Below, one piece after another: positions 31,962 through 49,651 of a stretch of DNA of 64,000 nucleotides. The notes below the pieces were generated by a model. It was not told the origin of the DNA and did no database searches. It saw only the letters and a program-made list of their open reading frames with translations. How positions within the stretch are numbered: the stretch's first letter is position 1; each line of letters begins with the position of its first letter. The stretch covers positions 1 through 64,000 of IMG/VR virus record IMGVR_UViG_3300030430_003122; one strand, 5' to 3'. This DNA is from a virus. A program made the position numbers and the translations under genes.

Positions 31962-32615
31962 ATGAAAATTGATCTTCGTGATGTGACCGTGAGATGGGTC
32001 AATGTTGACTCAGACACGGAAAAAAATAAAATGATGGAAGAACTATGTGATCGGGTTGGGTTTAAAAATGCTTCCCGTTTTTCCGCAGTTACAGGTATTG
32101 ATCCACACGAAGGCGTGATCGCCGGGGAAGAACACTACCGAAATTGTGCTGAATCACATTTTAAAATATACGAGGAAACAGATTCCTTCCCACTTCTCAT
32201 CCTAGAGGACGATGTGGAAATTGAGGAATCTGTTTTTACATATAATCTTGATAATGTCCCAGATGATGCAGATGCGATTTACCTTGGCACATCACATGGA
32301 GATGGTAGATACTCAGCACGGGATGTAGGAAACGGATGGATGCGGGTCGAGAGAGTTTTTGCCACGCACTCTATTCTATACTTAAATAAACGAATATGCG
32401 AAAAGGTCATCGAGGTGGGCAAACATTGGATCTATGAACTAAACAGACCATTCGATGTCGGTTTTGCATATCATGTTCAACCGCACTTTAATGTCTACTC
32501 TCCACACATTCCATTTTTCTATCAAGCAGACTCGAAAAATACGAAAAACAAGTGGGAGAAGTTAACAAGAACTCCTCTACAGCACAAGAAAAAGTTTTCG
32601 GTATTTACAACATGA
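31962..32615 (+). CDS. GT25-type (LPS family) glycosyltransferase
   Basis: First gene of the sugar island. A 217-residue protein with the GT25 architecture: an N-terminal VRWVNVDSDTEKNKMMEE (compare the usual NLDRxxDR start), RFSAVTGIDP near residue 40, and the metal-binding LLILEDDVEIEE near 75. Members add sugars to LPS or to collagen-type hydroxylysine. A second GT25-like gene lies at 34095. The acceptor is unknown. It overlaps the next gene by four bases. Confidence 0.65.
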   Translation: MKIDLRDVTVRWVNVDSDTEKNKMMEELCDRVGFKNASRFSAVTGIDPHEGVIAGEEHYRNCAESHFKIYEETDSFPLLILEDDVEIEESVFTYNLDNVPDDADAIYLGTSHGDGRYSARDVGNGWMRVERVFATHSILYLNKRICEKVIEVGKHWIYELNRPFDVGFAYHVQPHFNVYSPHIPFFYQADSKNTKNKWEKLTRTPLQHKKKFSVFTT

Positions 32616-33412
32616 CAAAAACAATCAGTTTTAATATGCTCGGCCGATATGGTCGTCTAGGAAACTCAATGTTTCAGTATGCCGCCGTGTTAGGATCTGC
32701 TAGAGCATCAGGACACAATCCCATTTGCCACCTTTCCGGGATACCCTTAATGTCAGAGTGTTTTGAATTGGGTTCAGTCCAAGATGGTCAGATTGAACCT
32801 GACTTATTGCTTAATGAGCAAGGGTTTAATTATCAACAAATAGCACATAATATTCCGTTCAATCGCAGTGTTGATTTCCGTGGTTACTTTCAAACAGAAA
32901 AATATTTTAAGCACGTTGAGACTGAGGTGAGACAAAACTTCGCTTTTAAACAATATATCAAGGATCTAGCGATTGAAAAAATTCCAGAAGACGTATGTGT
33001 TTCCGTTCATGTTCGTAGGGGGGATTATGTTGCTTTAGCAGAATACCACCATAACCAAACAATGGAATATTATCATGAAGCATTATCTAAATTTCCGAGG
33101 CACCGTCCCGTATTTTTTTCTGATGATATTGCGTGGTGTAAAGAGAATTTTTCACACATCGATAAGGCAGTTTTTGTCGAGAATGAAGAAACTCTAAACA
33201 CCAATGCCACATATAATTCAGACATATCTGGATACGTTGATATGTGTGCGATGTCTTTTTGCAACGACCATATCATTGCAAATAGTAGTTTTAGTTGGTG
33301 GGGTGCTTGGTTGGGACAAGGTAACGTGGTTGCACCTAAAAAGTGGTTTGGATCAAAAAAAGAAAATGAAAACCATGAAGATATTTATTGTGAAGGTTGG
33401 ATGGTCGTATGA
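32612..33412 (+). CDS. GT11 fucosyltransferase-like protein (copy 1)
   Basis: Family 11 enzymes transfer fucose from GDP-fucose in alpha-1,2 linkage. This 266-residue protein has the GDP-fucose motif HVRRGDY at 133-139, the N-terminal GRLGNSMFQYA near 14-24, FFSDDIAWC near 165 and the C-terminal ANSSFSWWGAWLG. All family hallmarks are present. I used the ATG that overlaps the previous stop (ATGA). It is followed directly by a GT6 gene, which would act on the product of an alpha-1,2-fucosyltransferase in the blood-group pathway. Confidence 0.85.
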   Translation: MTKTISFNMLGRYGRLGNSMFQYAAVLGSARASGHNPICHLSGIPLMSECFELGSVQDGQIEPDLLLNEQGFNYQQIAHNIPFNRSVDFRGYFQTEKYFKHVETEVRQNFAFKQYIKDLAIEKIPEDVCVSVHVRRGDYVALAEYHHNQTMEYYHEALSKFPRHRPVFFSDDIAWCKENFSHIDKAVFVENEETLNTNATYNSDISGYVDMCAMSFCNDHIIANSSFSWWGAWLGQGNVVAPKKWFGSKKENENHEDIYCEGWMVV

Positions 33413-34098
33413 AAATTTTAATGATGAATATCGCCACAAACAAATACACTAGGTTTGTTGACGATTTTTATGTTTCTTGTAATCAGTTCTTTTTACCTAA
33501 TACAGATGTTCATCATTTACTGTTTACAGACAACATGGAGTTTGAAACAAACACCGGAGTTCCTCTTAAAAAAAGTTATGTCGAGCATAAACCGTTTCCA
33601 GAACCAACTCTAAAAAGATATCACTACTTTCTCCAAGAAAGAGATTATATTGAGCAGTTTGATTATGTTTTTTACTCTGATATCGATATGAAGTTTGTTT
33701 CCCCTGTATCAGAGGAAGAGATTTGCTCCGATCTCACTCTAACAATACACCCCATGATTAGAACGAATCGGGAACTGTATTCTTATGACTCTAATAAAGA
33801 AAGCACTGCTTATATCAATATCAACACTGAGGGGGAGTATTATTTTTGTGGTGGGTTTAATGGTGGGTCTTCTAAAAAGTTCATGGAACTATCCAATACC
33901 ATAGCGAAAAACGTTGACACTGATAGTAAAAAAGGTACAATGGCAATTTGGCATGATGAGAGTCATTTGAATAGATACGCGGTTGACAACCCACCAACAA
34001 ATATAATTGATTGGTGTGTCACTGATTGGTATTGGGCACGAACTGGACAAGGAAAATTAATTTGTCTTTCAAAAGACCACACGGAGATTAGATCATGA
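33409..34098 (+). CDS. GT6 family (ABO/alpha-galactosyl-type) glycosyltransferase
   Basis: GT6 enzymes add Gal or GalNAc in alpha-1,3 linkage to beta-galactosides. This 229-residue catalytic-domain-only protein shows the metal-binding DID at 91-93 in YSDIDMKFV, GGFNGGS near 148-154 and the near-invariant WHDESHLNRY at 181-190. Bacterial GT6 proteins often have NxN in place of DxD; this one keeps DxD, like animal enzymes and like the cyanophage P-SSM2 homologue I recall. The first ATG with stop overlap was chosen over an upstream TTG. Confidence 0.85.
   Translation: MKILMMNIATNKYTRFVDDFYVSCNQFFLPNTDVHHLLFTDNMEFETNTGVPLKKSYVEHKPFPEPTLKRYHYFLQERDYIEQFDYVFYSDIDMKFVSPVSEEEICSDLTLTIHPMIRTNRELYSYDSNKESTAYININTEGEYYFCGGFNGGSSKKFMELSNTIAKNVDTDSKKGTMAIWHDESHLNRYAVDNPPTNIIDWCVTDWYWARTGQGKLICLSKDHTEIRS
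33914..33941 (+). promoter_or_regulatory. Internal sigma70-like promoter in the GT6 gene
   Basis: TTGACA, 16-base spacer, TACAAT, inside the GT6 coding region, 154 bases upstream of the gene at 34095. It could start an internal transcript covering the next part of the island. Confidence 0.4.
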
Positions 34099-34700
34099 AA
34101 CTAAATTTAACAGAGTTACCGGTTGTTTATATTAATCTTGACAGAGACACAGAAAAAAGACAGAGCATGGAAAAGATTTTTTGTGATCATGGTTTTTCAA
34201 ACGTTCACAGGTCTCCGGGGGTGATTGTCCCGAATGAACATGTTTGTGTTGGTATATCTCACGCATTTAGAAATGCGTTTGAGTTAGCATTTTCTGTGAG
34301 TAACGGCGGACCTTTTTTAATGTTTGAGGATGATCTGGTAACCCGAGATGCCTTTACAACCGAGATTGATCTTCCGGACAATTACGATGCATGTTACTTG
34401 GGTATCTCTACATGGGCGAGAGTCAATGGAATAAGTGGACCATATTTGAAAGGCGAACTACTCGAAGATAGATCTGATCTGGTTAGGATTCATAACATGC
34501 TATCGGGACACGCCATACTTTATAGAGGAAACGAATACTCAAAAGTTATTCATGCAAAAATGACGAGGGCGATACAAGAAAAAACATATCAAGATATTGA
34601 GTTCGCAGAAACGATGGGTGCATATAATGTATATGCATTCACCGATCCTTTGTTTTATCAGTCCAGTAGTGAAAATGTAACAAACTTGAGGTTACAATGA
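34095..34700 (+). CDS. GT25-type glycosyltransferase (copy 2)
   Basis: A 201-residue protein with a classic GT25 beginning, VVYINLDRDTEKRQSME (residues about 9-25), and the acidic metal site FLMFEDDLVTRDAF near 75-88. HAILYRGNEYSKVI near 140 matches the family's central helix. It is a diverged paralogue of the gene at 31962. It overlaps both neighbours by four bases. Donor and acceptor are unknown. Confidence 0.75.
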   Translation: MKLNLTELPVVYINLDRDTEKRQSMEKIFCDHGFSNVHRSPGVIVPNEHVCVGISHAFRNAFELAFSVSNGGPFLMFEDDLVTRDAFTTEIDLPDNYDACYLGISTWARVNGISGPYLKGELLEDRSDLVRIHNMLSGHAILYRGNEYSKVIHAKMTRAIQEKTYQDIEFAETMGAYNVYAFTDPLFYQSSSENVTNLRLQ

Positions 34701-35551
34701 CAAATGTAACTTATGTTGGTGGTTGTGATTGGTTGTGTGTCCCTGAATGGTTCTCATCTGAAAAAGATATTGAGATAGTTTCTGAGATTGGTGATTGGAT
34801 ACCAGATAAGAATAAATTAAGTGTCTTCATTGATTTCAGTGAACCCGATTGGTATCTTACAACTAAAACAAATGAAGTGTTAAGTAGAGTTGACGATTTC
34901 CAACTTATAGTAACGAGAAGACCAGAACTTTTAGAGTATCCACAATCAGAAAAACTAATTGCGGGCGCGTGTTGGTTGAGTGATGAATATAGAAACAATC
35001 CAAATGTAAACAAAGAACCATCTGTGTCTTTCACGAACACAAACAAATGCATGGTTTATCCTTGGGGGTTTGCTGATGGGTATGATCACCGACATTCCAT
35101 TACCCGAGATTGGAATGAACTTCAAACACTTTCTAACCTCCCACTGCATTTCTATAATAGTAGAAAATTTCCCTGTCCCCTAGAGGGCATGGAAATTAAA
35201 TTTTTAGATGAACACAGTAAAGACTCATGCATGAATCACATGTTTCACATAGCAGTGGAGAACGCACAATCACCAAATTACATAACAGAAAAACTGATAG
35301 ACTGTCTCGCAGCAAAAACCATACCCATATATTATGGTTGTTATAACATACACGAATATTTTGACATCGATGGTATTTTGCAGTTCCACACCAGAGATCA
35401 ATTAATCGATATTTTGCAAAATCTTACGCCAGAGATGTATGAAGAAAGAAAAAAAGTAATCGATAAAAATTATGAACTGTCTAAAAAATGGTGGGACACC
35501 GGTGCTATTTTTTGGAAGAAAGTTGAAGAAAGGTTAAATCATGCTAAGTGA
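34697..35551 (+). CDS. GT10 fucosyltransferase-like protein
   Basis: GT10 enzymes transfer fucose alpha-1,3/1,4 to GlcNAc, making Lewis-type structures. This 284-residue protein has the C-terminal donor-binding segment at 183-214: FHIAVENAQSPNYITEKL followed by IDCLAAKTIPIYYG, the soluble-enzyme pattern. The N-terminal half is diverged, though KNKLSVFIDFSEPDWYL may match the acceptor domain. It stands right after GT11, GT6 and GT25 genes. The family call is good; linkage and fucose specificity are inference. Confidence 0.7.
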   Translation: MTNVTYVGGCDWLCVPEWFSSEKDIEIVSEIGDWIPDKNKLSVFIDFSEPDWYLTTKTNEVLSRVDDFQLIVTRRPELLEYPQSEKLIAGACWLSDEYRNNPNVNKEPSVSFTNTNKCMVYPWGFADGYDHRHSITRDWNELQTLSNLPLHFYNSRKFPCPLEGMEIKFLDEHSKDSCMNHMFHIAVENAQSPNYITEKLIDCLAAKTIPIYYGCYNIHEYFDIDGILQFHTRDQLIDILQNLTPEMYEERKKVIDKNYELSKKWWDTGAIFWKKVEERLNHAK

Positions 35552-36365
35552 GATTGGTTTATTTTATGATGGACAAGGTAGGGGTCCGGGTAAAGTTCGT
35601 GACAATTTAATCAAAGGTCTTGAACTGTTAGGTGTTAAGGTTTTTCATGGAGAGGAAAGAGAACACACAGGATGGTTACATAATTGTCCTCCCTCATTTA
35701 TTCCGGAACACTGGTTACTAGGTCCAAATTTATTTGTATTACCAACAGACGCACCTCCTGATTTCTGGAGCAAAAAAAGAAGACTGGTTACTCCGTGTTG
35801 GTGGACCACTGATGTTTACTCGCAGGTCTTGACACAGGCAGGTTTACCACATGAACTATACACATGGGCGGTTGGTATAGACACTGACAAGTTCTCCCCC
35901 AGTGATACAACAAAAACGAATGACTGCATCATTTATTTTAAGAATGGAAATCTGAATGATTATGTGGATGTGACCAAAAAACTAAAGAGTAGAAATCTAT
36001 CATATGAAGAGTTACGTTACGGAGACTACGATGAAAAGGATTTGATTGAACTAGCACAAAGATCTAAGTTTGTCGTGACTTTAACATCTACAGAGAGTCA
36101 GGGTATTGCATACCAAGAACTATTGTCAATGAATCTCCCCTGTTATGTTTTTGAAAGAGACATGTGGAGGGACAGACCCGGTTTTTCTTGTCCCGCATCT
36201 TCCGCCCCATATTTTGATAGCAGATGTGGGATAAAATGCAAAGACGTTTCTTTCCTTGATACGTTCATCAACGATCTAGAAAAATATGCTCCCCGTGACT
36301 ACATACTAGACAACCTAACGCTTGAAAAGTGTGCAAGTGAATACCTTTTAATGATGGAGAAATAA
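35541..36365 (+). CDS. GT-B type glycosyltransferase
   Basis: A 274-residue protein with a GT4-like C-terminal domain: ESQGIAYQELLSMNLPCYVFE (residues about 185-205) carries the E-x7-E nucleotide-sugar motif. The N-terminal half contains GQGRGPGKVRDNLIKGLELLG, typical of the glycine-rich acceptor-side loop in family 4 enzymes, and a WWTTDVYSQ segment. It is short for GT4 (usually 350 or more). It overlaps the GT10 gene by 11 bases. Donor unknown. Confidence 0.6.
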   Translation: MLSEIGLFYDGQGRGPGKVRDNLIKGLELLGVKVFHGEEREHTGWLHNCPPSFIPEHWLLGPNLFVLPTDAPPDFWSKKRRLVTPCWWTTDVYSQVLTQAGLPHELYTWAVGIDTDKFSPSDTTKTNDCIIYFKNGNLNDYVDVTKKLKSRNLSYEELRYGDYDEKDLIELAQRSKFVVTLTSTESQGIAYQELLSMNLPCYVFERDMWRDRPGFSCPASSAPYFDSRCGIKCKDVSFLDTFINDLEKYAPRDYILDNLTLEKCASEYLLMMEK

Positions 36366-36366
36366 T

Positions 36367-37431
36367 ATGAACAAATATGTTGTGGTTACTGGTTCTTGTG
36401 GTTTAATTGGAATGGAGTCTTGTCTATTCTTTCATAAAAAAGGATATCGTATCATTGGAATTGATAATGATATGAGATCTTACTTTTTTGGGGAAGGTGC
36501 ATCTACGGCATCGAATCGAAAATTTTTAGAGAGCAATATAGACGGATACATTCACCACCATATTGATATTAGAGATTTTCACTCAATGGAAGAAATTTTT
36601 GAGTCGTTTGGTTCAAACATTGAGTGTGTTATCCACTCAGCGGCACAACCCTCACATGACTGGGCAGTAAAAGAACCGTTTACTGATTTCAATATCAACG
36701 CCACCGCCACACTGAATCTCTTAGAGTTAACTAAGAAACATTGCAAAGATGCTTCTTTTATTTTTATGTCCACCAATAAAGTTTATGGTGATAGACCAAA
36801 CGGAATTTACGATAACTGTGACTTTAACATCAAAGAACTTGAAACTCGATATGAGGCATATGGTAATGATGGAGAACTCTACTCCGTAGATGAAGACATG
36901 TCAATTGATGGGTGTAAACATTCGGTGTTTGGTGCATCAAAGGTTGCAGCAGATGTTATGGTTCAAGAATACGGAAGATATCATAACATGAATACCGTAT
37001 GCTTTCGTGGAGGATGTTTGACTGGGGGAGGACATGCTGGTGCAGAACTACACGGGTTTATGTCATACCTTGTTAAGTGTATGAAATCAAATAAACATTA
37101 CACCATATTTGGTTACAAAGGAAAACAAGTGAGGGACAATATTCACTCATGGGATTTGGTTAATGCGTTTTGGCACTATCACCAAAATCCAACCTCTGCT
37201 GCCGTTTATAATATCGGTGGGGGTCGGGACAACGCAGTATCCATGACGGAGGCAATCGATCTGATTAATGAGGAAATGAACTCTAATTGGGATAATTATA
37301 CTCTCTCGAAAGAAAACAGAATTGGTGATCACATTTGGTATATCAGTGACTTGAGTAAATTTAAAAAAGACTATCCGGAGTGGAATATAACAAAAGACAT
37401 TAGAGAGATTATTCGGGAGATGATCGCATGA
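36367..37431 (+). CDS. NAD-dependent sugar epimerase/dehydratase (CDP-tyvelose-epimerase-like)
   Basis: Extended short-chain dehydrogenase of 354 residues. The NAD site is VVTGSCGLIGMES; MSTNKVYGD is the beta-5 segment; the Tyr-x3-Lys position reads SVFGASK, with Phe where Tyr is normally catalytic. FRGGCLTGGGHAGAELHGF and FGYKGKQVRDNIHS resemble a subgroup often annotated as CDP-paratose/tyvelose 2-epimerase. Such an enzyme would fit with the RfbH-type dehydrase downstream. The substrate is inferred and the Phe substitution leaves the reaction open. Confidence 0.6.
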   Translation: MNKYVVVTGSCGLIGMESCLFFHKKGYRIIGIDNDMRSYFFGEGASTASNRKFLESNIDGYIHHHIDIRDFHSMEEIFESFGSNIECVIHSAAQPSHDWAVKEPFTDFNINATATLNLLELTKKHCKDASFIFMSTNKVYGDRPNGIYDNCDFNIKELETRYEAYGNDGELYSVDEDMSIDGCKHSVFGASKVAADVMVQEYGRYHNMNTVCFRGGCLTGGGHAGAELHGFMSYLVKCMKSNKHYTIFGYKGKQVRDNIHSWDLVNAFWHYHQNPTSAAVYNIGGGRDNAVSMTEAIDLINEEMNSNWDNYTLSKENRIGDHIWYISDLSKFKKDYPEWNITKDIREIIREMIA

Positions 37432-38237
37432 TAATTGTTAAGTTAATGGGTGGTCTAGGGAATCAAATGTTTCAGTATGCTATGGGTCGATCTTTAGCAG
37501 AAAGAAATAATACAGAACTCATTGTCGATACCAGTTTCTTGGAAGATAAAAATAGCGGGGTCACTGTGTTTCGTGATTATGAACTTGATTTGTTCCCGAA
37601 TATAAAAGAAAAGAAATTACAGAGTTCGGTGGAGGCGGTTCCATTTTACGAGTCACACTTTCATTGTGATGAGCGTTTGTTAAACGTAAAGACATCACAG
37701 AACATTTATATGACTGGTTATTGGCAAACTTACAAATACTTCAATGACATCAATGATACCATAATAGAAGAATTTAAGTTCCCTATTATTCAAGATGAGA
37801 GAACAAGACTGTTACAAGAAGAAATTGTCTCTCGCAATTCTGTGATGATTAATGTTCGACGATCAGATTATTTGACTGATTCTTTGTTTGAGAATCTTGA
37901 CATGGACTATTACAATCAGTCCGTTGAGAAAATCACCGACATGGTGGACGACCCCATGTTTTATGTGTTTTCTGATGATATCGAGTGGTGTAGGGAAAAT
38001 TTTACCGAAGATAAGTTTTTTATTGTTGATAAGTCATACGCTGGTCCAAAGTATATCGACTACTTACATTTAATGTCCTCATGTAAACACCACATTATTC
38101 CTAATAGCACATTTGCTTGGTGGGCAGCGTGGTTGCATCAAGGAGAGGATCAAATAGTGACATACCCCTCAAAATGGTTCACGGATAAAAGTAAAGATAC
38201 AAAAGATATTTGTCCCCCAGAATGGATTAAACTATGA
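37428..38237 (+). CDS. GT11 fucosyltransferase-like protein (copy 2)
   Basis: A 269-residue GT11 protein: MGGLGNQMFQYAMGRSLA (residues about 7-24), TGYWQTYKYF near 96-105, NVRRSDY at 142-148 (Asn replaces the usual His of HxRRxDY), FYVFSDDIEWC near 181 and the C-terminal IIPNSTFAWWAAWL. It is closer to typical bacterial alpha-1,2-fucosyltransferases than copy 1 in its N-terminus. It overlaps neighbours by four bases each side. Two GT11 copies suggest two fucose-type additions or different acceptors. Confidence 0.85.
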   Translation: MIIVKLMGGLGNQMFQYAMGRSLAERNNTELIVDTSFLEDKNSGVTVFRDYELDLFPNIKEKKLQSSVEAVPFYESHFHCDERLLNVKTSQNIYMTGYWQTYKYFNDINDTIIEEFKFPIIQDERTRLLQEEIVSRNSVMINVRRSDYLTDSLFENLDMDYYNQSVEKITDMVDDPMFYVFSDDIEWCRENFTEDKFFIVDKSYAGPKYIDYLHLMSSCKHHIIPNSTFAWWAAWLHQGEDQIVTYPSKWFTDKSKDTKDICPPEWIKL

Positions 38238-38998
38238 AAAAAGTTAGTGCTATAATTTCTTGCTATAAGTCGGATCGTTACATTGAAACCTTCCTGAGAA
38301 CAATGGAATATCAAACGTATGATAATTTTGAATTAGTTATTCATACCAATGAAACCAGTCAACTTGAAAGAGATTGCATCAATCGTGCAAAACAATTTGT
38401 TGATATAGTTCACATCGAGGATGAACAAGTTATTCCTCTTTATGCCGCATGGAACAAATGCATTCAACACTCTGATGGTGAATTAATTTGTATTAATAAT
38501 GCGGATGATCTTCGAGCAAGTGACTCTATAGAAAACATGGTCGCGTGTTTTAATGATGAAGTTGAATTTTGTTATGGTAACTACATAGTCAGCACAAATT
38601 TTGGTGACACGCATGGTCGTTTGGTGGATGAAACTGGTCGTGAAAACGAACTAACCACCGGTATGATACTGGGACCATTTTTTATGTTCAAAAAGTCAGT
38701 GCTTGATAAATGTGGCATGTTTGATGAGCAGTTTAAATCCGGCGGGGACATGGACTTTGCAATGAGACTGGGAAGAAAATGTAAAGGTGTTCATACCCCA
38801 AGTTTACTGGGAGCGTATTTGGATGAGGGGACTGGTCTTAGCACGGGTTCAGAATTGCAACCTCTAGAAAGAACTGTAATTGAGCGTAGATATGGTCTTA
38901 ATATTCTAGAACCAAGATTTGTAGAAAAGTCAATGGAATATGACATTGCAAATGTGTCATACAATGGTTCCACCACGCCAATTGAGGAGTTTATCTGA
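38234..38998 (+). CDS. GT2 family glycosyltransferase
   Basis: A 254-residue GT-A enzyme. N-terminal VSAIISCYKSDRYIETFLRT (residues about 3-22) and YDNFELVIHTNE are the GT2 nucleotide-binding strands; CINNADD near 90 is the DxD-equivalent metal site; MILGPFFMFKKSVLDKCGMF near 140 and GGDMDFAMRLGRK near 170 form the acceptor side. No membrane segment is present. It overlaps the next gene by one base. Donor and acceptor are unknown. Confidence 0.75.
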   Translation: MKKVSAIISCYKSDRYIETFLRTMEYQTYDNFELVIHTNETSQLERDCINRAKQFVDIVHIEDEQVIPLYAAWNKCIQHSDGELICINNADDLRASDSIENMVACFNDEVEFCYGNYIVSTNFGDTHGRLVDETGRENELTTGMILGPFFMFKKSVLDKCGMFDEQFKSGGDMDFAMRLGRKCKGVHTPSLLGAYLDEGTGLSTGSELQPLERTVIERRYGLNILEPRFVEKSMEYDIANVSYNGSTTPIEEFI

Positions 38999-39777
38999 TG
39001 GAAATTTCAATTTGTATCGTAACTTTTAAAGAACGTGCTGAAGATATAAAGCGATTGGTATCGCAGATACGAGCAGACAATGACTCGGATGGTGTTGACA
39101 TAATTCTTGCCATAAACGGGAATATAGATGAGCGGATGGATGAATACTATCGAAAAGAAATGATGGAGTTGTGTTCTACCACACCAAACTGTTATCCAAT
39201 CTTCTGTCCAGAATTTAAAAGTTTACCGAAACTGTGGAATACACTAGCAATCTTTAGTCGAACTGAGTATAATTTGCTTCTAGGTGATGATGTAGAGTAT
39301 ACAAATACAAATACAATTAGAGAAATTAAAGACTACATATTGAACTCCTCTGATTCATTTTTTACCATAAACCACGGATTCTCTCATTTTGTGCTTACTA
39401 AAACTATACTCCATGAACTAAAATATTTTGATGAAAGATTTTGTGCTTACGGCGAAGAGGACGGTGATATGGTTCATCGGTTTATTGATCACATGGGAAC
39501 AGAAATAAATAATATTTTTATAGGTGGGTTGCACAATAAAGCGTTATATGATTCCAAGTCAAACCAACAGTTAGATTTCCATGAAAGCAATAAACCAAAA
39601 TTTAATAGAGAATTTTGCGGACTGAAGTATGAAAATAATCCTAATGGAATACGGGGAATGAGTCCAACCCCAGTATCAGTTAAGTCGGGTATGGAAGTTT
39701 TACAACAATATCCCTATGAGGAATTCGTTAGGAAAAATAAACATAACATTACGAAATTTAAGGAGATCGTTTTATGA
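38998..39777 (+). CDS. GT2-like glycosyltransferase
   Basis: A 259-residue protein starting EISICIVTFKERAEDIKRLV, a GT2-type first strand and helix. YNLLLGDDVEYTNTN near residue 92 is the likely metal-binding DD site and FDERFCAYGEEDGDMVHRF near 142 resembles the catalytic ED pair region. Diverged from the other GT2 genes in the island. It overlaps the next gene by four bases. Confidence 0.6.
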   Translation: MEISICIVTFKERAEDIKRLVSQIRADNDSDGVDIILAINGNIDERMDEYYRKEMMELCSTTPNCYPIFCPEFKSLPKLWNTLAIFSRTEYNLLLGDDVEYTNTNTIREIKDYILNSSDSFFTINHGFSHFVLTKTILHELKYFDERFCAYGEEDGDMVHRFIDHMGTEINNIFIGGLHNKALYDSKSNQQLDFHESNKPKFNREFCGLKYENNPNGIRGMSPTPVSVKSGMEVLQQYPYEEFVRKNKHNITKFKEIVL

Positions 39778-40763: not shown

Positions 40764-40764
40764 T

Positions 40765-41749: not shown

Positions 41750-42286
41750 ATGATGAAAAATGCGTTAATGATGACATGGGAACAATATCAAGATCACGAA
41801 GTAATCTACCCATACTATAGGGTTATTGAAGAAGGATTTAGTATTGATATCATGGCCAATGTTAAGGGAAGAATTCATGGAATTCTTGGCACTTACATGG
41901 AAAGCACAAGAACAGTAAGTGAACTTGATACTTCTTATGATGAGATCATGGATGAGTATGACTTATTGATAATTCCCGGCGGAGTTAAGTCGCTCGAAAA
42001 ATTACGACAAGAACAGAAAGCATTGGATTTCATTGCAGACTGGGACAGTAGAAATAAAACTATAGCGTGCATCTGTCACGGTGGACAGATGTTGATTTCA
42101 TCCAAGATAACTGAAGGTCGTGATGTTTCCGGTTATTACAGTATTAAAGATGATTTGATTAATTCTGGTGGTAATTATGTTGATGCTCCGGCAGTTGTAT
42201 CTAACAATCTCGTTTCATGTCCCCATTACAAGTGGATGGGTGAATGGATGTCATCTGTTTTTGACGTATACAACGAAAGGAATTGA
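41750..42286 (+). CDS. DJ-1/PfpI family protein
   Basis: A 178-residue single-domain protein of the class I glutamine amidotransferase-like superfamily. The nucleophile elbow is CICHGGQML with Cys109-His110; LLIIPGGVKSLEKL near residue 72 and GYYSIKDDLINSGGNYVDAP near 125 match the PfpI-type protease/chaperone/deglycase group. The start follows AAAGGAAA in a 28-base gap. Its function in a sugar locus is unclear; glyoxalase or deglycase activity, or amidotransferase-like chemistry on a keto sugar, are guesses. Confidence 0.75.
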   Translation: MMKNALMMTWEQYQDHEVIYPYYRVIEEGFSIDIMANVKGRIHGILGTYMESTRTVSELDTSYDEIMDEYDLLIIPGGVKSLEKLRQEQKALDFIADWDSRNKTIACICHGGQMLISSKITEGRDVSGYYSIKDDLINSGGNYVDAPAVVSNNLVSCPHYKWMGEWMSSVFDVYNERN

Positions 42287-42969
42287 TGTTGTCCCACAAT
42301 AACAACATTGTGAAAAAACCGTGGGGTCATGAATACCTTTGTTATGAAAATGAACATGTCGGACTTTGGTTTTTATTCATAGAGAAGGATCACCAAACGT
42401 CACTTCACTGTCATCCTAAAAAAACTACAGGGTTGGTTCTTTTAGACGGTGAGGCAGAAATTTCATTTTTAGCAGATAAACGCACTATGAAATCAATTGA
42501 TAAGTTGATGATTAGGCGGGGACTGTTTCACTCTACTAAATCTTTATCAGATGGGGGGAGTTTTATTTTTGAAATAGAAACCCCGGTGGACAAAAAGGAT
42601 TTGGTTCGATTGAATGACAAGTATGGTCGCACCAGCAAACCATACGAAGACAGCAGTTTTGAATCGGCAAAGAATGAAGATTGCTTATGGATAGAAGAAC
42701 CCGATGTTGATAAATCAAATCACTATGATTTTTCAAATTGTAAATTGACTGTTGAAAATATTAGTAGTTTGGATTCTATTATTGAAAAGAAGGACGATGA
42801 CATTATAGTTTTTCTTCGTGGTGGCATGATTCGCACCATTGACGACATATCTCATTGTGTCACAGTGCCGGGTGATGTTGGTAAAGGAAACATTGTAAAG
42901 AAAGTGGCCCAGCAATTGGATGGGTTGAAACCAGAAACAATCATAATGACAATTAATAAGAATGATTAA
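42286..42969 (+). CDS. Cupin-domain protein (phosphomannose-isomerase-like fold)
   Basis: A 227-residue protein. KPWGHEYLCYENEHVGLWFL (residues about 11-30) and TSLHCHPKKTTGLVLLDGEAEI (about 40-61) are a cupin metal-binding region similar to type II mannose-6-phosphate isomerase domains, with His43 and His45-type ligands. The C-terminal 80 residues are a separate unknown domain (IIVFLRGGMIRTIDDI). Sugar-phosphate isomerase or sensing roles are possible. The start ATG overlaps the previous stop (TGATG). Confidence 0.65.
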   Translation: MLSHNNNIVKKPWGHEYLCYENEHVGLWFLFIEKDHQTSLHCHPKKTTGLVLLDGEAEISFLADKRTMKSIDKLMIRRGLFHSTKSLSDGGSFIFEIETPVDKKDLVRLNDKYGRTSKPYEDSSFESAKNEDCLWIEEPDVDKSNHYDFSNCKLTVENISSLDSIIEKKDDDIIVFLRGGMIRTIDDISHCVTVPGDVGKGNIVKKVAQQLDGLKPETIIMTINKND

Positions 42970-43465
42970 ATCACTAAAAACATTGTGTGAAGAGCATGAA
43001 ATTTTCATGTTTGATCTTGATCGGACGGTATTTGATACTCACACGAAAATGGGCGAACCCATTTGGGCAAAACAAATGATAAATCCATTAATTAATCTTG
43101 ATACAGACACTATTCGAGATGATTGTTTTTCTTTGTGTAAATTACAATCTGGTATTCGTTCTGTGTTAAGTTATTTACAGATTCATAATAAAAAACTTGG
43201 TTTTATATCACGGGGTGGGATATTTGATTTGGATTATGAAAAGCAACCCTCTGTTTTATTACTGAAAAATTTTGGGATTTATGATTACTTTTCGTATAAA
43301 AAAATCTTACTATACAAAGATGATAATAAGGCGGATCAATTATCTGAGATAGGATCTTGTGTATTTTTTGATGATATGGATAGAGATCTTGATTCTGCCA
43401 GAAAATTGGGTGGGATCGAGGTTTGTGATAGAAAACAATTTGAAACATGGGAAGATTTACTTTGA
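42962..43465 (+). CDS. HAD-superfamily hydrolase
   Basis: A 167-residue protein with HAD motif I FDLDRTVFDT (nucleophile Asp18, acid Asp20), motif II-like GFISRG near residue 79, and motif IV CVFFDDMDRDLDSA near 138. It is the size of small phosphatases acting on sugar phosphates or nucleotides. Between a cupin and a ThDP enzyme in the island, a sugar-phosphate phosphatase is the simplest inference. Stop and next start share one base. Confidence 0.75.
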   Translation: MIKSLKTLCEEHEIFMFDLDRTVFDTHTKMGEPIWAKQMINPLINLDTDTIRDDCFSLCKLQSGIRSVLSYLQIHNKKLGFISRGGIFDLDYEKQPSVLLLKNFGIYDYFSYKKILLYKDDNKADQLSEIGSCVFFDDMDRDLDSARKLGGIEVCDRKQFETWEDLL

Positions 43466-45255
43466 TGAAATTGTCAGATTATGTCTTTGATTTTATGTCG
43501 GAAAAATCAATCGATACTATTTTTTCTGTATCAGGAGGGGCGGCCGCCCATCTATTAAACTCTGTTGCAGAAAGAAACGATTTTAAATTCATATGCAATT
43601 ATCATGAACAATCGTGTGCGATGGCAGCAGAGTCTTATGCCAGATTGATGAATAAACCTGCATGTGTTTTGTTGACAAACGGACCCGGATCGACAAACGC
43701 AATAACAGGGGTCTCTGGTGCTTACGGTGAATCAATTCCAATGATTGTTATTTCTGGGCAAGTTCCAACTAACTTATCTTTGAATATTTTATCAAACGAC
43801 ATTAATCTCAGACAACTTGGTGTGCAAGAGTGTGACATCATTAGTTCGGTCAAGTGCATGACAAAGTATGCTACTCAAGTTACAGATCCAAAAAGAATAA
43901 GATATCATTTGGAAAAAGCATATCATCTGGCAACAACTGGCAGAAAAGGACCGGTGTGGTTAGACATTCCATTGGACATTCAGAATGCCCAGATTGAACC
44001 AGAAGAGTTAATTGGTTATGAACCAGAAGATACACCACGTTTCTCATATGATATGGATGAATTAATTCAATTAATTTGTAATGCAAAAAAACCTGTCATA
44101 GTTACAGGTAATGGAATACATTTATCCAATACTGAAAAATTGTTTTTGGAATTAAAAGAGAAACTTCAGATTCCCATAGTTTCGACATGGACATCAAAAG
44201 ATTTGATGAACTTTGATGATGAATTGTTTGTGGGTAACTTCGGCATAATGGGAGAGCGATCTGCAAATTTGTCGATTCAAAATTCTGATTTGCTACTAAT
44301 TTTAGGGAGCAGATTGTCCGTTCCAAATACTGGATATAACTACAATTCATTTTCACCAGATTCAACAAAAATAATGGTGGACATAGATGCGAATGAGTTA
44401 AACAAACCAACTCTTAAAATAGATTTTCCAATAAATGAAAACTTAAATGTTTTTCTTTCCGGTCTACTTTCTAAGTTACAAGACGTTGACTTGCCTAGTT
44501 ATGAGACTTGGAAAAATTTAACACAGTCTTGGAAGTTAAAATATCCTGTTTTCCAAGAGGAGTATAAAAACAACAAGTCTAAAATAAACTCGTTCTACTT
44601 TATGGAAGTTCTCTCCGATAAGTTAACTGAAGATAGCATTGTTGTTACTGATATGGGAACCAGTTTTACTTGTTCTATGCAATCTCTGAAGATGAATGGA
44701 CATAATAGACTGTTTACTTCAAGTTCCCAGTCTTCAATGGGATATGGATTACCGGGCGCAATTGGATCATATTTTGCACAACCAGACAAAAATATTATAC
44801 TGATAGCGGGTGATGGCGGATTTCAGATGAACATACAAGAATTACAATGTGTGGTTCACTATAACATACCAATTAAAATGTTTATTCTCAATAATAATGG
44901 ATACTTAGCCATTTCTTTGATGCAAGATAATTTGTTTAACAGTAAATATATTGGATCAAACACTCAAAGTGGTGTTAGTAGTCCTGATTTTACCAAGGTG
45001 TCGGATGCATACGGTATTAAAAGTTTTAAATTCAACAATAATACCGAACTAGAAAATCATATAGATGAAGTTTTGAATTACGAAGGGACTGCATTGTGTG
45101 AAATAATGATGACAGAAAACCAATTATTGGTTCCTCGTGTTCAGAGTAAAAAAGATAATTGTGGTAATATACAATCAACAACTTTGGACGATATGTTCCC
45201 GCATTTGAGTAATGATGAAAAGGAAAGTATAAAGATGGAAATTAATAGTATATGA
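43465..45255 (+). CDS. Thiamine-diphosphate-dependent enzyme (acetolactate-synthase-like)
   Basis: A full-length 596-residue ThDP enzyme. The catalytic Glu48 in CNYHEQSCAMAAESYA, VLLTNGPGSTNAITG near 72-86, and the ThDP/Mg motif GDGG at 449-452 followed by LNNNGY at about 477-482 are intact. The segment after it (GSNTQSGVSSPDF) resembles ThDP enzymes in O-antigen loci more than biosynthetic acetolactate synthase. YerE of yersiniose synthesis, which adds a two-carbon unit to a 4-keto-dideoxy sugar, is from this superfamily; that role here is inferred from the RfbH neighbour. Confidence 0.85.
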   Translation: MKLSDYVFDFMSEKSIDTIFSVSGGAAAHLLNSVAERNDFKFICNYHEQSCAMAAESYARLMNKPACVLLTNGPGSTNAITGVSGAYGESIPMIVISGQVPTNLSLNILSNDINLRQLGVQECDIISSVKCMTKYATQVTDPKRIRYHLEKAYHLATTGRKGPVWLDIPLDIQNAQIEPEELIGYEPEDTPRFSYDMDELIQLICNAKKPVIVTGNGIHLSNTEKLFLELKEKLQIPIVSTWTSKDLMNFDDELFVGNFGIMGERSANLSIQNSDLLLILGSRLSVPNTGYNYNSFSPDSTKIMVDIDANELNKPTLKIDFPINENLNVFLSGLLSKLQDVDLPSYETWKNLTQSWKLKYPVFQEEYKNNKSKINSFYFMEVLSDKLTEDSIVVTDMGTSFTCSMQSLKMNGHNRLFTSSSQSSMGYGLPGAIGSYFAQPDKNIILIAGDGGFQMNIQELQCVVHYNIPIKMFILNNNGYLAISLMQDNLFNSKYIGSNTQSGVSSPDFTKVSDAYGIKSFKFNNNTELENHIDEVLNYEGTALCEIMMTENQLLVPRVQSKKDNCGNIQSTTLDDMFPHLSNDEKESIKMEINSI

Positions 45256-45289
45256 ATGTATTAATTATGGTTGATTGGGGTTATTCGAT

Positions 45290-46141
45290 ATGATAGTGCA
45301 AGTTACTCTTACCCGAGACGAATTATTTTTAATTAAAGAGATGTTACCACAGTGGCAAAAGTACGCAGATGCTTTTGTTTTTATGGTTGATAGATCCGTT
45401 GATGGGACATATGAGTTCCTAATGGAAAATAAAGAAAAGTATAATATTCTCAGTGTTTTACAAACTAACTGGGAGATGGATGGGTTAACTGTAGAAACTG
45501 ATGAGAGACAAAGATTGTATGATGAAGCATTCAAACACAGTGGAAAAATCATATGTCTCGATACTGATGAATACATTGATGGTAATGTCACCAAGGAACA
45601 ACTGGAGGATATCTTAGAGGCAAACAAAAATACTGTATTCAAAGCACCGTGGATACAATACACATCAAAAGATACTCATAGGGTAGATGGTCCTTGGAGA
45701 AACAACTACCATGAGAGAATTGGTTCATATCAACAAAGAGGAAAATTTAAACAAGCAGTGAGGCATTCAGAACATATACCATCGAGTGATAATTCACTTG
45801 CGTTTAATTATCCTGATTTATTCATCGCACATCTTCAGTGGTTGGATAAAAAAACTGTTGGTGTTAAACAATATTATTGGAAGATTTCTGATTATGTTGC
45901 ACAAAGAGAACATGGTGCTGAGATCATATCGTCCGCTTGTTATGATGATTCTGTTAATAATTTCAACTGGGAGTATTCTAGTATTGACTTCCCTCTAAAG
46001 GTAAATGAAAATGTGTATGGTAAAAACAATCTAGAGGATAGTTTTAAATACAAATATATCATGGAATATATTAAAAAATATGACATCCCAAATATGAACG
46101 ATTGGGGTATGGGGATTCACTCGGGGGAAATATTCAAGTGA
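45290..46141 (+). CDS. Glycosyltransferase (GT2/GT92-like)
   Basis: A 283-residue protein. VQVTLTRDELFLIKEMLPQW near the N-terminus, FVFMVDRSVDGTYEFL and the metal-site IICLDTDEYIDG near residue 90 are the usual arrangement of GT-A enzymes with a DxDE motif. The following FKAPWIQYTSKD and IAHLQWLDKK resemble GT2 proteins in LPS loci. I chose ATG 45290; an upstream TTG is less likely. The stop overlaps the next gene start (GTGA). Donor unknown. Confidence 0.65.
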   Translation: MIVQVTLTRDELFLIKEMLPQWQKYADAFVFMVDRSVDGTYEFLMENKEKYNILSVLQTNWEMDGLTVETDERQRLYDEAFKHSGKIICLDTDEYIDGNVTKEQLEDILEANKNTVFKAPWIQYTSKDTHRVDGPWRNNYHERIGSYQQRGKFKQAVRHSEHIPSSDNSLAFNYPDLFIAHLQWLDKKTVGVKQYYWKISDYVAQREHGAEIISSACYDDSVNNFNWEYSSIDFPLKVNENVYGKNNLEDSFKYKYIMEYIKKYDIPNMNDWGMGIHSGEIFK

Positions 46142-46944
46142 AAATTTTAATAACAGGAGGCAATGGATACATTGCTAAAAGTCTTCATGAAAAATTCTCT
46201 GATAAGTATGATATAACCAGTGTGAGCAGAAAAGACTTTGATCTCTCAGACCCCATCGAAACCTTTAAGTGGTTCGAGGATAAAAAATTTGATGTTGTCA
46301 TCCACACCGCGATAGTTGGGGGAAATCGATTACAAGAAGACGACCATGAGATAACGAAACAAAATTTGTTAATGTATTATAATCTAATGCAAAATAAAAA
46401 GTCTTTTGGTAGATTACTTTCGTTTGGGTCTGGTGCAGAGGTCACAAGAACAAACACTCCATATGGGTTGAGTAAACGACTGATCGCAGACTCTATAGCA
46501 GAAACAGAAAACTTTTACAATATAATCATATTTGCGGTCTTTGATGAAAATGAATTAGATAGAAGATTTATCAAATCCAATATCAAGAGATATATCGAAA
46601 ACAAACCTATGATTGTTCATTCGGATAAGGTTATGGACTTCTTTTATATGGAGGATCTATGTTCTCTCGTTGATTACTACATCCAAAGAGTTTCCCCTCC
46701 AAAAGAAATTAACGCTTCGTATGAAAATAAATACTCACTTCGAGACATTGCAAACATGATAAACCAGTTGGGAAAACATATAGTTCCTGTTGAAATAAAA
46801 AACGAACATGACCCGGAAGTTTATGCTGGGTCTTCTGATCTACCAATTAAATGTGTTGGGTTGTTTAGGGGAATCGAAAAAACATATTTGACTTTGAAAA
46901 AACAGTCTGGTATAGTATGCACGGAAAATATATCACATGGTTAA
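46138..46944 (+). CDS. NAD(P)-dependent reductase/epimerase (SDR family)
   Basis: A 268-residue short-chain dehydrogenase: ILITGGNGYIAKSLH cofactor site, LLSFGSGAEV, catalytic YGLSK near residue 121 and DFFYMEDLCSLVDYY near 180. The short length and RmlD-like start (SVSRKDFDLSD) suggest a 4-ketoreductase. Located between the ThDP and RfbH genes, it is a candidate for the final C4 reduction of a dideoxy or branched sugar, as YerF or RfbS do. Start is GTG, preceded by GGGGGA. The promoter at 46888 lies in its 3' end. Confidence 0.7.
   Translation: MKILITGGNGYIAKSLHEKFSDKYDITSVSRKDFDLSDPIETFKWFEDKKFDVVIHTAIVGGNRLQEDDHEITKQNLLMYYNLMQNKKSFGRLLSFGSGAEVTRTNTPYGLSKRLIADSIAETENFYNIIIFAVFDENELDRRFIKSNIKRYIENKPMIVHSDKVMDFFYMEDLCSLVDYYIQRVSPPKEINASYENKYSLRDIANMINQLGKHIVPVEIKNEHDPEVYAGSSDLPIKCVGLFRGIEKTYLTLKKQSGIVCTENISHG
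46888..46916 (+). promoter_or_regulatory. Internal promoter upstream of the RfbH-like gene
   Basis: TTGACT at 46888-46893, 17-base spacer, TATAGT at 46911-46916, in the 3' end of the SDR gene, with an expected RNA start about 14 bases before the RfbH-like ATG at 46937. Placement so close to a start makes chance less likely. Confidence 0.55.
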
Positions 46945-48262
46945 TTTAACATCACAGAAACAACAAGAAGAAATCGCAGAATTAGTATCCAAGTATAGAG
47001 ATAGAAAAGAATGGACTCCGGGTGACTGGGTACAATATGCTGGACCATATTTCACCGACGAGGAGTTTATCAAAACCATCGAGTGTCTGTTAGGTGGTTG
47101 GTTGGTTCTTGGCGAAAAGGGTCTTCGCTTTGAGAGAAAATTTAAGAGATGGTTTGATAAGGGATATGGTGCGTTGACCAACAGTGGATCTAGTGCGAAC
47201 CTTCTCATGATCTCTTCCTTGAAGTCAAAGAGATTATACAATTTCAAAGAGGGAACCAAGATCATAACTCCGGTCGCAGGATTTCCTACCACACTAAATC
47301 CTATTTTACAGAATGGGTATGAACCTGTTTTTGTTGATATTGAAATTGATACGCTTAATCTAAACGTTGATCAACTAGAAGACGCAGCAAAGAGTGGAGC
47401 AAAAGCGATAACGTTCGCACATGTATTGGGCAACCCACCAAACATGGATAGAGTGATGGAGATTGTTCGAGACTATGATCTTATTCTACTAGAGGATACA
47501 TGTGACGCATTGGGTTCAACCTATGATGGAAAACTTCTAGGATCGTTCGGTAACTTCGCTTCTTGTTCTTTTTATCCTGCCCACCATATTACAATGGGAG
47601 AAGGTGGTTTTGTCGCCTGCTCCACTAAAGAGGAGGAGACGGTTGTTAAGTCACTCAGGGAATGGGGACGCGGGTGTTATTGTGCTGGTGAAAAAGCATC
47701 ATGTCTTAAGAATGGTATGTGTGGTAAAAGGTTCTCTCCTTGGATCGACTCAATGCCAGATACTATTTTTGACCACAAATACTTGTATGAAGAAATCGGA
47801 TACAACCTCAAACCAATGGACCTACAGGCAGCAATGGGATTGGTTCAACTAGACAAACTTGAGGAAATTATTGCCTTGCGTAAGAGAAACTATAAGGCAT
47901 ATTTCGATACCTTTCACAAGTATGAAGATTATTTTCACTTGCCCAGACCACAAGATAAAGCAGATCCCTCTTGGTTTGCGTTTCCACTCACGGTTCGAGA
48001 TAATGCTCCTTTTGATAGAAAAGACTTTACTCTGTGGTTAGAGGAGAATAAAATCCAAACCAGAAACTACTTTGCAGGTAATGTGTTGTTGCAACCTGCG
48101 TACACACATCTATATCCAAATATAGATGCCAAAACAAAATATCCAGTGGCGACAAAGGTGATGAAAGACACATTTTTCCTCGGAACCAGTCCTGTCATCA
48201 CAGAAGAACAGACTAAATATGTTTGTTCAACCGTAGACAAATTTTTTGAAACAAGGAAGTAA
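46937..48262 (+). CDS. rfbH: CDP-4-keto-6-deoxyglucose 3-dehydrase (RfbH/E1 type)
   Basis: PLP- and [2Fe-2S]-dependent enzyme that removes the C3 hydroxyl of a 4-keto-6-deoxy nucleotide sugar. 441 residues, usual length. In SFYPAHHITMGEGG, His216 replaces the aminotransferase Lys, the hallmark of E1. Cluster cysteines Cys189, Cys247, Cys249 and Cys256 have the C-x57-C-x1-C-x6-C spacing, close to the C-x57-C-x1-C-x7-C known for Yersinia E1. EDTCDALGSTY and IGYNLKPMDLQAAMGL match RfbH. The partner reductase (RfbI/E3) is not in this window. Confidence 0.92.
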   Translation: MVNLTSQKQQEEIAELVSKYRDRKEWTPGDWVQYAGPYFTDEEFIKTIECLLGGWLVLGEKGLRFERKFKRWFDKGYGALTNSGSSANLLMISSLKSKRLYNFKEGTKIITPVAGFPTTLNPILQNGYEPVFVDIEIDTLNLNVDQLEDAAKSGAKAITFAHVLGNPPNMDRVMEIVRDYDLILLEDTCDALGSTYDGKLLGSFGNFASCSFYPAHHITMGEGGFVACSTKEEETVVKSLREWGRGCYCAGEKASCLKNGMCGKRFSPWIDSMPDTIFDHKYLYEEIGYNLKPMDLQAAMGLVQLDKLEEIIALRKRNYKAYFDTFHKYEDYFHLPRPQDKADPSWFAFPLTVRDNAPFDRKDFTLWLEENKIQTRNYFAGNVLLQPAYTHLYPNIDAKTKYPVATKVMKDTFFLGTSPVITEEQTKYVCSTVDKFFETRK

Positions 48263-48265
48263 ATA

Positions 48266-49651
48266 ATGAGTGCAAGACCAAATGGCGTGACAGTTACACT
48301 GTGCATGATCGTAAAAGATGAAGAGCATATTATCCATGAGTGTTTGGATTCGATGCGTCCGTATATTGACCGATACGATATTACCGACACGGGATCAACC
48401 GACAGAACCAAAGAAATTATCAAAGAGTGGGGTGAGAAGAATAATATTCCCGGAACTGTTTATGATGCACCTTGGCGTGGGTTTGGTAAGTCTCGCACAG
48501 AATCTTTGAGAAACGCAGACAAGGGTGGTGCTGACTACTCTTGGGTCATCGATGCAGATGATTGTGTTCGTGGTAATTTTGTCTATCCACCCCAGTTTGG
48601 TGAACACGCTGCATATACCCTTAAGATTCATCGTGGTGACTTTGAATGGTGGCGTAATCAAATTTTTAAGAACAACATGGAGTGGGAGTATGTTGGTGTT
48701 ATTCACGAATATGCAAACAGTCCTAAACTCGCTGATTGTGGTCTGGGTGTTGCTCGACTACTCGGTGACTACAATATTGACGCTAGAACAATGGGCAATC
48801 GAACCAAGGAGTTTGATGTTAAGTTAGAAGAAGGTCAAACAGAAGAACCCGGAAAAGAATCTTGGAGGAAAAAGTATCTCCATGACGCTGCAACTTTGCT
48901 AGACTGCTTAACCAATCCCGAAAACGAAAATTACGAACCCGACAATTTAAGATATTATTTCTACCTAGCACAGTCATACTTTGATGGTGGTGACTTTGCC
49001 AGTGCGAAGGAGTGGTATACCAAGAGAGCAGAGAAGGGCGGTTGGGAAGAGGAGCAATGGTATTCTGTTCTTCGTGTTGCAATGTGCATGACTAATCTCG
49101 GAGAGAAGTGGCAGGATACTCAAGACGTATTTTTGCAGGCGTATAACCTCAGACCGCAGCGAGTTGAGTCACTCTTCAACCTTGCAAGAATTCATCGGAT
49201 GAATGGAAACCCAAGACTTGGGTATCTTTTTGCAAAAATGGGTGCTGGAACTCAAGTGCCACCCGAGGATGTATTGTTTGTCGCTAAAGATGTTTTCGAG
49301 TGGCAAATTTATGATGAACTCGCGTCCACCGCTTGGTATGCCAATGATATGCAGGCAGGACTTGCAGCGTCAAACAAACTTCTCACCGAAAAGTTGTACC
49401 CGCAAGAGCATCATGAAAGAATCATGAATAACTGGAAAAATTATGTTGCCTATTTTGAAAAAATAGAAGAAGAGAAAAAGCAAAGAGAAGCAGAGGCAAC
49501 TAAGCAAAAAATACTCAATGATGAATCCCAAAAAGCAGAGTCCGCTAAAAGGAAAGAGCAAACCAAAATTCGAGAGCAACAGAAGAAGATAAATAAGAGG
49601 AGACAGAAACAAAAAGCAGCGTCTAAGTCTCGCAAAGCATCGAGGAGATAA
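48266..49651 (+). CDS. GT2 glycosyltransferase with TPR-like and basic tail
   Basis: A 461-residue protein in three parts. Residues 1-220 are a GT2 domain: VTLCMIVKDEEHIIHECLDS, DTGSTDRTKEII and the metal site WVIDADD near 92. Residues about 230-385 are helical TPR-like repeats (YFYLAQSYFDGGDFASAKEW, LFNLARIHRMNGNPRLGYLF). Residues 390-461 are a very basic coiled coil ending in SKSRKASRR. The TPR part suggests protein acceptor binding, as in some protein O-glycosyltransferases. It ends the island, three bases before a fibre-type gene. Confidence 0.75.
   Translation: MSARPNGVTVTLCMIVKDEEHIIHECLDSMRPYIDRYDITDTGSTDRTKEIIKEWGEKNNIPGTVYDAPWRGFGKSRTESLRNADKGGADYSWVIDADDCVRGNFVYPPQFGEHAAYTLKIHRGDFEWWRNQIFKNNMEWEYVGVIHEYANSPKLADCGLGVARLLGDYNIDARTMGNRTKEFDVKLEEGQTEEPGKESWRKKYLHDAATLLDCLTNPENENYEPDNLRYYFYLAQSYFDGGDFASAKEWYTKRAEKGGWEEEQWYSVLRVAMCMTNLGEKWQDTQDVFLQAYNLRPQRVESLFNLARIHRMNGNPRLGYLFAKMGAGTQVPPEDVLFVAKDVFEWQIYDELASTAWYANDMQAGLAASNKLLTEKLYPQEHHERIMNNWKNYVAYFEKIEEEKKQREAEATKQKILNDESQKAESAKRKEQTKIREQQKKINKRRQKQKAASKSRKASRR

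Follow-up and report, generated by a model that had tools for sequence, protein, structure and literature searches.

A sugar-gene island beside regA in an uncultured T4-like phage encodes a predicted branched-sugar pathway, probably for the phage's own tail fibre

We analyzed a 64,000-nucleotide stretch of viral DNA (hereafter, the window), which covers positions 1 to 64,000 of the 86,122-base IMG/VR record IMGVR_UViG_3300030430_003122, itself a fragment. Between regA and the DNA polymerase gene (gp43) of this T4-like phage lies an island of 20 genes that is real, intact and dedicated to glycan building. Our analysis suggests that the island probably directs the synthesis of a carbon-branched deoxysugar and its assembly with other sugars into a glycan, which would most likely be carried by the phage's own tail fibre. 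The computed basis of this proposal consists of protein families, conserved catalytic residues, the linkage of these genes in different viruses, evidence of purifying selection and no predicted membrane segments.

A YerE-like enzyme and its linked sugar genes

The island encodes a thiamine diphosphate (ThDP) enzyme that, in a comparison with PDB entries, scores 399 bits against JanthE (8rph) and 255 bits against the best acetolactate synthase. Its catalytic ThDP glutamate (E48) and its GDG...NN motif (G449-D450-G451 and N476-N477) are invariant in our alignment (A1). JanthE is one of the YerE-like lyases; YerE itself transfers a two-carbon unit (activated acetaldehyde) to cytidine diphosphate (CDP)-3,6-dideoxy-4-keto-glucose, while ErwE takes 4-hydroxy-2-oxo acids (PMC12247030, PMC12188165). 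Sugar genes accompany the enzyme across viruses: 22 distinct viral ThDP loci carry RfbH in 19 cases, RmlB in 19 and a short-chain dehydrogenase/reductase (SDR) in 17. RfbH was present in none of the 42 control loci seeded with regA (each at least 10 kb) and lay nearby in 37 of 80 cellular ThDP loci. An RmlB-type gene was found near the ThDP gene in 23 of 31 viral loci versus 1 of 80 cellular ones.

The linkage bears on a highly improbable alternative, namely that the ThDP gene encodes a true acetolactate synthase for amino-acid synthesis and that the sugar genes around it are cargo without any connection to it. In NCBIfam it does match acetolactate synthase models best (TIGR00118, 380 bits), and viral surveys annotate such genes likewise (PMC8226683), but the NCBIfam scores shown all fall under the curated cut-offs, and both the higher JanthE score and the RfbH linkage argue for a YerE-like function.

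RfbH exceeds the curated cut-off of its family model. Aligned to 3bcx, it keeps the histidine that replaces the pyridoxal phosphate lysine, together with four cysteines at positions that we take, from general knowledge, to belong to the 2Fe-2S cluster. Its product is predicted to be the 3-deoxy keto sugar that a YerE-like enzyme needs. The remaining sugar-making genes are four SDRs, described in the original prediction as nucleotide-sugar dehydrogenases; strictly, none is, since they are of the epimerase (36367 and 39774), dehydratase (40726) and reductase (46102) types. The CDP-glucose 4,6-dehydratase RfbG of the CDP-3,6-dideoxyhexose pathway is absent from the island, with the RmlB-type enzyme in its place.

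Our model is a pathway whose order of steps, nucleotide carrier, donor acid, product and acceptor are inferred. The RmlB-type enzyme would convert nucleoside diphosphate (NDP)-glucose of the host into a 4-keto-6-deoxy sugar, from which RfbH, using host reducing power, would remove the 3-hydroxyl. The YerE-like enzyme would then decarboxylate an alpha-keto acid and place the acyl unit onto C4, and the SDR at 46102 would reduce the product. Finally, the last enzyme of the island (GT2-TPR, below) would prime the fibre protein, and the GT11, GT6, GT10, GT25, GT-B and GT2 enzymes would lengthen the chain in the cytoplasm.

A predicted polypeptide glycosyltransferase beside the fibre genes

The last gene of the island (48266) encodes a glycosyltransferase family 2 (GT2) domain joined to a tetratricopeptide repeat (TPR) domain, the arrangement demanded of a GmaR- or SunS-type enzyme. 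A structural model of the protein (pLDDT 87) matches ThuS and SunS in Foldseek at about 1e-13. GmaR glycosylates flagellin (PMC9638930). GmaR, SunS, ThuS and the phage protein have in common a GT2 catalytic domain with TPR-like helices after it; unlike them, the phage protein adjoins a tail-fibre gene and lacks an antirepressor domain, and its acceptor is a prediction. A fibre-type gene directly follows GT2-TPR in 14 of 15 distinct relatives, and no match to it was found in isolated cyanophages. At L136:9641-10846 the GT2-TPR gene is split into two adjacent ORFs (open reading frames).

Hydropathy analysis detected no membrane-type hydrophobic segment in any island protein. Thus, the island lacks the flippase, polymerase and membrane priming transferase that mark an O-antigen or lipopolysaccharide cluster. 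Together with the likeness of GT2-TPR to polypeptide glycosyltransferases and its fibre neighbour, this favours cytoplasmic protein glycosylation over envelope synthesis. The original prediction had placed the glycan either on the phage itself or on the host envelope; these three lines of evidence lean to the phage itself.

An unlikely alternative is that the island remodels the host envelope (lipopolysaccharide, O-antigen or capsule) with the same branched sugar, for instance blocking superinfecting phages. YerE, RfbH and tyvelose-type enzymes do serve bacterial O-antigen synthesis (PMC12247030), a comparable cluster is carried by cyanophage RN05-S, and the island sits among early or middle replication genes. 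The absence of membrane functions argues against it, however, as does a GT2-TPR enzyme that precedes fibre genes.

Several observations weigh against a branched sugar on the fibre. The sequence match of GT2-TPR to GmaR (1.8e-12, PDB) covers the catalytic domain only, its Foldseek TM (template modelling) scores are modest (0.47-0.63), and in one relative, G040, no fibre gene stands directly after GT2-TPR. Threonine-rich collagen repeats are inconstant in the neighbouring fibres, so they do not mark the attachment site, and lipid-linked glycans of the host can also be substrates of soluble glycosyltransferases. The 86-kb record, a fragment, contains neither a nucleotidyltransferase (NTP_transferase family) nor a ferredoxin (Fer2 family). 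Lastly, the dehydratase is of the deoxythymidine diphosphate (dTDP) type, yet the solved relatives of RfbH and of the tyvelose-epimerase-like SDR use CDP sugars, so the evidence on the carrier is mixed.

Since the fragment has no nucleotidyltransferase, the phage may draw on dTDP-glucose of the host; the CDP-tyvelose-epimerase-like SDR, judged by its relatives, points away from such a supply. The partner reductase (E3) or ferredoxin of RfbH may likewise come from the host. We also considered Thr-rich collagen repeats as a conserved acceptor and rejected them as a rule: at the Y position the share of threonine runs from 0 to 0.76 beside GT2-TPR, no higher than elsewhere.

Layout, integrity and relatives of the island

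ORF calls give 20 co-directional frames on the plus strand (31962-49651) with zero internal stops; 15 of the 19 junctions overlap, and the remaining four have gaps of 1-28 nucleotides (Table 1). The original prediction of a continuous 20-gene sugar block after regA is therefore borne out. Its claim that the block splits regA from the DNA polymerase gene holds in position, but the immediate right-hand neighbours are tail-fibre genes, a dUTPase and MazG, and not gp43 directly. About 11 of the 20 ORFs are glycosyltransferases, two of them weakly supported, in line with the roughly ten anticipated in six families (GT25-like, GT11, GT6, GT10, GT-B and GT2); the other nine are the four SDRs, RfbH, the ThDP enzyme, DJ-1, a cupin and an HAD protein, the five non-SDR kinds also as anticipated, with weak family matches for the cupin and HAD proteins. 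Family calls came from Pfam, NCBIfam, PHROGs, PDB and fold comparison.

Table 1. Genes of the island and its flanks (window positions).
Positions	Strand	Feature	Evidence
28947-31954	+	Left flank: gp45 (28947), gp44 (29626), methyltransferase-like ORF (30600-31160), gp62 (31147), regA (31550-31954)	Pfam gp45-slide_C, AAA/Gp44_lid, Phage_clamp_A, Translat_reg
31962-32615	+	GT25-like glycosyltransferase (a)	PF01755 weak, E 0.002; phrog_24091 112 bits; phrog_2835
32612-33412	+	GT11 fucosyltransferase-type (a)	PF01531 2.4e-26
33397-34098	+	GT6 glycosyltransferase, relative of ABO transferases	PF03414 1.6e-28; PDB 4ayj 118 bits
34095-34700	+	GT25-like glycosyltransferase (b)	phrog_24091 159 bits; no Pfam match
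34697-35551	+	GT10 fucosyltransferase-type	PF00852 1.6e-8
35541-36365	+	GT-B (GT4-like) glycosyltransferase	No Pfam match; AlphaFold pTM 0.82; top Foldseek matches GT-B enzymes, best 8xsh, E 2.3e-8
36367-37431	+	SDR, nearest solved relative CDP-tyvelose 2-epimerase	PDB 1orr 108 bits; best match outside tyvelose epimerases 54 bits
37428-38237	+	GT11 fucosyltransferase-type (b)	PF01531 1.4e-33
38234-38998	+	GT2 glycosyltransferase	PF00535 4.4e-10
38998-39777	+	Probable glycosyltransferase, weak evidence	PF02709 E 0.016 only; PDB none
39774-40763	+	SDR, UDP-glucose 4-epimerase-like	PDB 4zrm 142 bits; galE model 144 bits, under its cut-off
40726-41721	+	RmlB-type NDP-glucose 4,6-dehydratase	TIGR01181 298 bits (cut-off 365) vs 76 for the CDP-glucose model; PDB 2hun
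41750-42286	+	DJ-1/PfpI protein of the ThDP module	PF01965 7.9e-31; like neighbourhood in other viruses
42283-42969	+	Cupin of the ThDP module	Weak PF01050; conserved near ThDP in modules of this type
42962-43465	+	HAD-like hydrolase of the ThDP module	Weak PF12689; HAD-like ORF at the equivalent place in related modules
43447-45255	+	YerE-like ThDP enzyme, predicted keto-sugar carbon brancher	ThDP domains; PDB 8rph JanthE 399 bits
45275-46141	+	Probable GT2-type glycosyltransferase, weak evidence	PF13704 E 0.02; adjoins RfbH in several viruses
46102-46944	+	SDR, predicted sugar reductase, RmlD/fucose-synthase type	PF01370 2.3e-17; weak PDB matches to RmlD and GDP-fucose synthase; kept near ThDP
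46937-48262	+	RfbH, NDP-4-keto-6-deoxyhexose 3-dehydrase	NF011936 466 bits, cut-off 423; PDB 3bcx 354 bits
48266-49651	+	GT2-TPR, predicted polypeptide glycosyltransferase	PDB GmaR 1.8e-12; Foldseek ThuS/SunS about 1e-13; TPR matches
49654-52138	+	Three fibre-type ORFs: phrog_1084 type, collagen-like fibre, one ORF without family; candidate acceptors	phrog_1084; phrog_8745 tail fibre; PF01391
52156-55606	+	Right flank: dUTPase, MazG-like ORF, gp43 DNA polymerase (53087)	gp43 nearest to Synechococcus phages (51%)

The T4-like character of the phage is marked by the 45-44-62-regA and gene 43 replication cluster (regA: PF01818, 146 bits) and by a T4-type portal, head and tail sheath. This setting is one of two points in favour of a quite improbable role for the glycosyltransferases, the modification of phage DNA bases after the manner of the T4 glucosyltransferases: the island is flanked by replication genes, and phages are known to hypermodify their DNA with a variety of glycans, according to work cited in PMC12619734. 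Against such a role, the record has no member of the thymidylate synthase/dCMP hydroxymethylase family PF00303 (a Thy1 gene is present), the families are GT11, GT6, GT10 and GT25, and no DNA glucosyltransferase of the GT2-TPR type is known.

Most of the island has a G+C content of 33-38%, versus about 40-46% in many other parts of the window. Its borders hold just short repeats, with no insertion signature; no tRNA was found, and Rfam gave zero matches across 28-56 kb. The T4-type late promoter TATAAATA, the only promoter type scored, occurs 0 times in the 64-kb window versus 2.5 expected.

Other features were recorded alongside. The GT6 enzyme (33397-34098) has a D-x-D motif (DID) where a metal-independent Bacteroides enzyme carries N-x-N, and scanning viral sequences with the GT-B protein (35541) returned no relatives. 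The methyltransferase-like ORF between gp44 and gp62 has no convincing family match in Pfam, NCBIfam or PHROG; a similar ORF is present in relatives G017 and G046. An additional SDR of the epimerase/4,6-dehydratase type (25772-26806) lies outside the island, upstream of the replication genes.

Comparison of 15 distinct related records, all uncultured viral contigs, revealed that the regA-gp43 interval differs greatly in length. Where a record has both genes, the interval measures 1.0, 2.3-2.5, 2.9, 3.8, 11.8, 17.6, 19.0, 21.1 (window), 22.6, 24.7, 26.4, 28.3, 30.6 or 32.3 kb; in the isolate S-CAM9 it is about 2 kb. Long intervals, where mapped, contain sugar and fibre genes, and short ones just dUTPase, MazG-like and a few ORFs; the short interval of G040 contains GT2-TPR alone of the sugar genes. 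This range of 1-32 kb suggests a recurrent cargo site of uncultured T4-like phages rather than a unique insertion. In G021 (C1:40375-44566), G030 and L178, gp43 matches as two separated pieces, possibly owing to an intein- or intron-like insert.

At the equivalent site, one uncultured relative, G017 (locus L039), has most of the island genes with their order unchanged, its branching module being replaced by NeuB, a different ThDP enzyme, an SDR, a DHQ (dehydroquinate)-synthase-like gene and a 317-amino-acid ORF. Between the window and G017 the island proteins are 38-92% identical, with synonymous sites nearly saturated (pS of roughly 0.7 and above), indicating that the island is not a chance assembly and is under purifying selection. 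Several sugar-making enzymes are among the most conserved proteins of the stretch (RfbH 92%, RmlB 88% and the tyvelose-epimerase-like SDR 84% identical, versus 69% for regA, 63% for gp44 and 48% for gp62), and most sugar-attaching enzymes diverge faster (glycosyltransferases, 42-80%). It is thus barely credible that the island is non-functional cargo, in decay or only transiently present: the lower G+C suggests separate acquisition and the site is variable, but none of the 20 frames is interrupted and protein identity has been maintained, so the genes are not degraded.

The combination had been thought undescribed, which stands in part. No DNA match to the island exists among 50,697 phage records, no described phage holds it, and the nearest RfbH from an isolate is 42% identical; it is not unique, however, given G017. 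As expected, isolated cyanophages do carry sugar clusters. Those of RN05-S, S-B43 and S-H68, also T4-like, share an RfbH-family gene (42%), GT11, GT25 and SDR genes with the island, but occupy another genome position and include no ThDP branching enzyme among their annotated genes. The YerE-type O-antigen pathway (yersiniose, erwiniose; JanthE, ErwE) likewise clusters an RfbH-type 3-dehydrase, a YerE-like ThDP lyase and an SDR reductase. In contrast, the island belongs to a phage, has an RmlB-type (dTDP-like) dehydratase where that pathway has the CDP-glucose enzyme, and is without cytidylyltransferase or E3 reductase (none seen in the fragment) and without O-antigen membrane genes. We found no description of a phage YerE-type pathway in the open-access full-text literature. 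The proposed glycosylation of the phage's own virion proteins has a precedent in mycobacteriophages (Freeman 2023, as cited in PMC12619734), where, according to that account, the C-termini of capsid and tail-tube proteins are modified; here, a fibre acceptor and a large dedicated nucleotide-sugar pathway are proposed.

Regarding the host, the closest gp43 sequences come from Synechococcus phages (51%), but gp23 is similarly close to those of Prochlorococcus, Pelagibacter and Methylophilales phages (about 52%), and the cyanophage marker psbA is absent from the 86-kb fragment.

An exchangeable branching module and viral panB genes

RmlB, RfbH and the SDR recur among viral loci, and the surroundings of the ThDP gene vary. 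They consist of DJ-1/cupin/HAD (the window and nine others), an HMGL-type aldolase with a phosphoribosyltransferase-like protein, PanB, or NeuB with a DHQ-synthase-like protein. The aldolase, PanB and NeuB all make or act upon alpha-keto acids, so the exchanged partner fits a donor-making role. In two viral loci an E1 alpha/beta pair takes the place of the YerE-like enzyme; E1-type pairs are a second ThDP class known to branch sugars (PMC12247030). Such pairs lie in the slot of the YerE-like enzyme, or beside it, at L054:12909-14031, L031:8810-9979 and L055.

The window's module type also has cellular counterparts: a Nitrospinaceae genome encodes cupin and ThDP fused in one 862-amino-acid ORF (L203:9212-11800), and in a Pacearchaeota genome DJ-1, cupin and ThDP genes are adjacent. 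In a tree of 105 ThDP sequences, built by a quick method with long branches flagged, the window type falls in a supported all-virus clade of nine, beside these Nitrospinaceae and Pacearchaeota proteins. This tree requires the viral label to change five times, which suggests repeated acquisition of the viral types.

Pantoate transferase has been reported as the most abundant viral vitamin-metabolism gene in an oxygen minimum zone, read as a boost to coenzyme A (PMC8940887), and viral rfbH and ilvB have been listed as auxiliary genes (PMC10653327, PMC8226683). A scan with viral PanB as query recovered 79 viral loci (L293-L369 range). A ThDP gene lay no more than 2.5 kb away in all 79, and an RfbH-family gene accompanied 72 of them, although some of these RfbH-family genes may, at low identity, be other DegT-family proteins. 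Because the first query had been drawn from ThDP-linked genes, we repeated the scan with an alignment led by cellular PanB (L373-L447 range); a ThDP neighbour was present in 78 of the best 80 viral loci, although this alignment still contained three viral rows and many loci were common to both scans. These neighbourhoods suggest that viral PanB genes may be sugar-branching donor genes and not vitamin B5 genes. A panB of Microcystis phage MaAM05 (L292, MW495066.1 254360-273139, at the record end) was set aside, as it adjoins panC and suf genes and the stretch looks like host DNA.

We tentatively propose, with some doubt, an exchangeable phage sugar-branching system in which a frame of RmlB, RfbH and reductase is combined with swappable ThDP enzymes and alpha-keto-acid makers, yielding diverse branched sugars on tail fibres. 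If so, virion glycan synthesis would be the role of many viral genes now labelled 'ilvB' and 'panB' and assigned to host metabolism. Pantoate transferase among viral 'auxiliary metabolic genes' would have to be reread, given its ThDP neighbours in the contigs examined here, although the genes in the surveys are perhaps other ones. Phages would then make their own rare branched sugars, and exchanging a single enzymatic step would vary these sugars, offering a genetic route to diversify the tips that meet the host.

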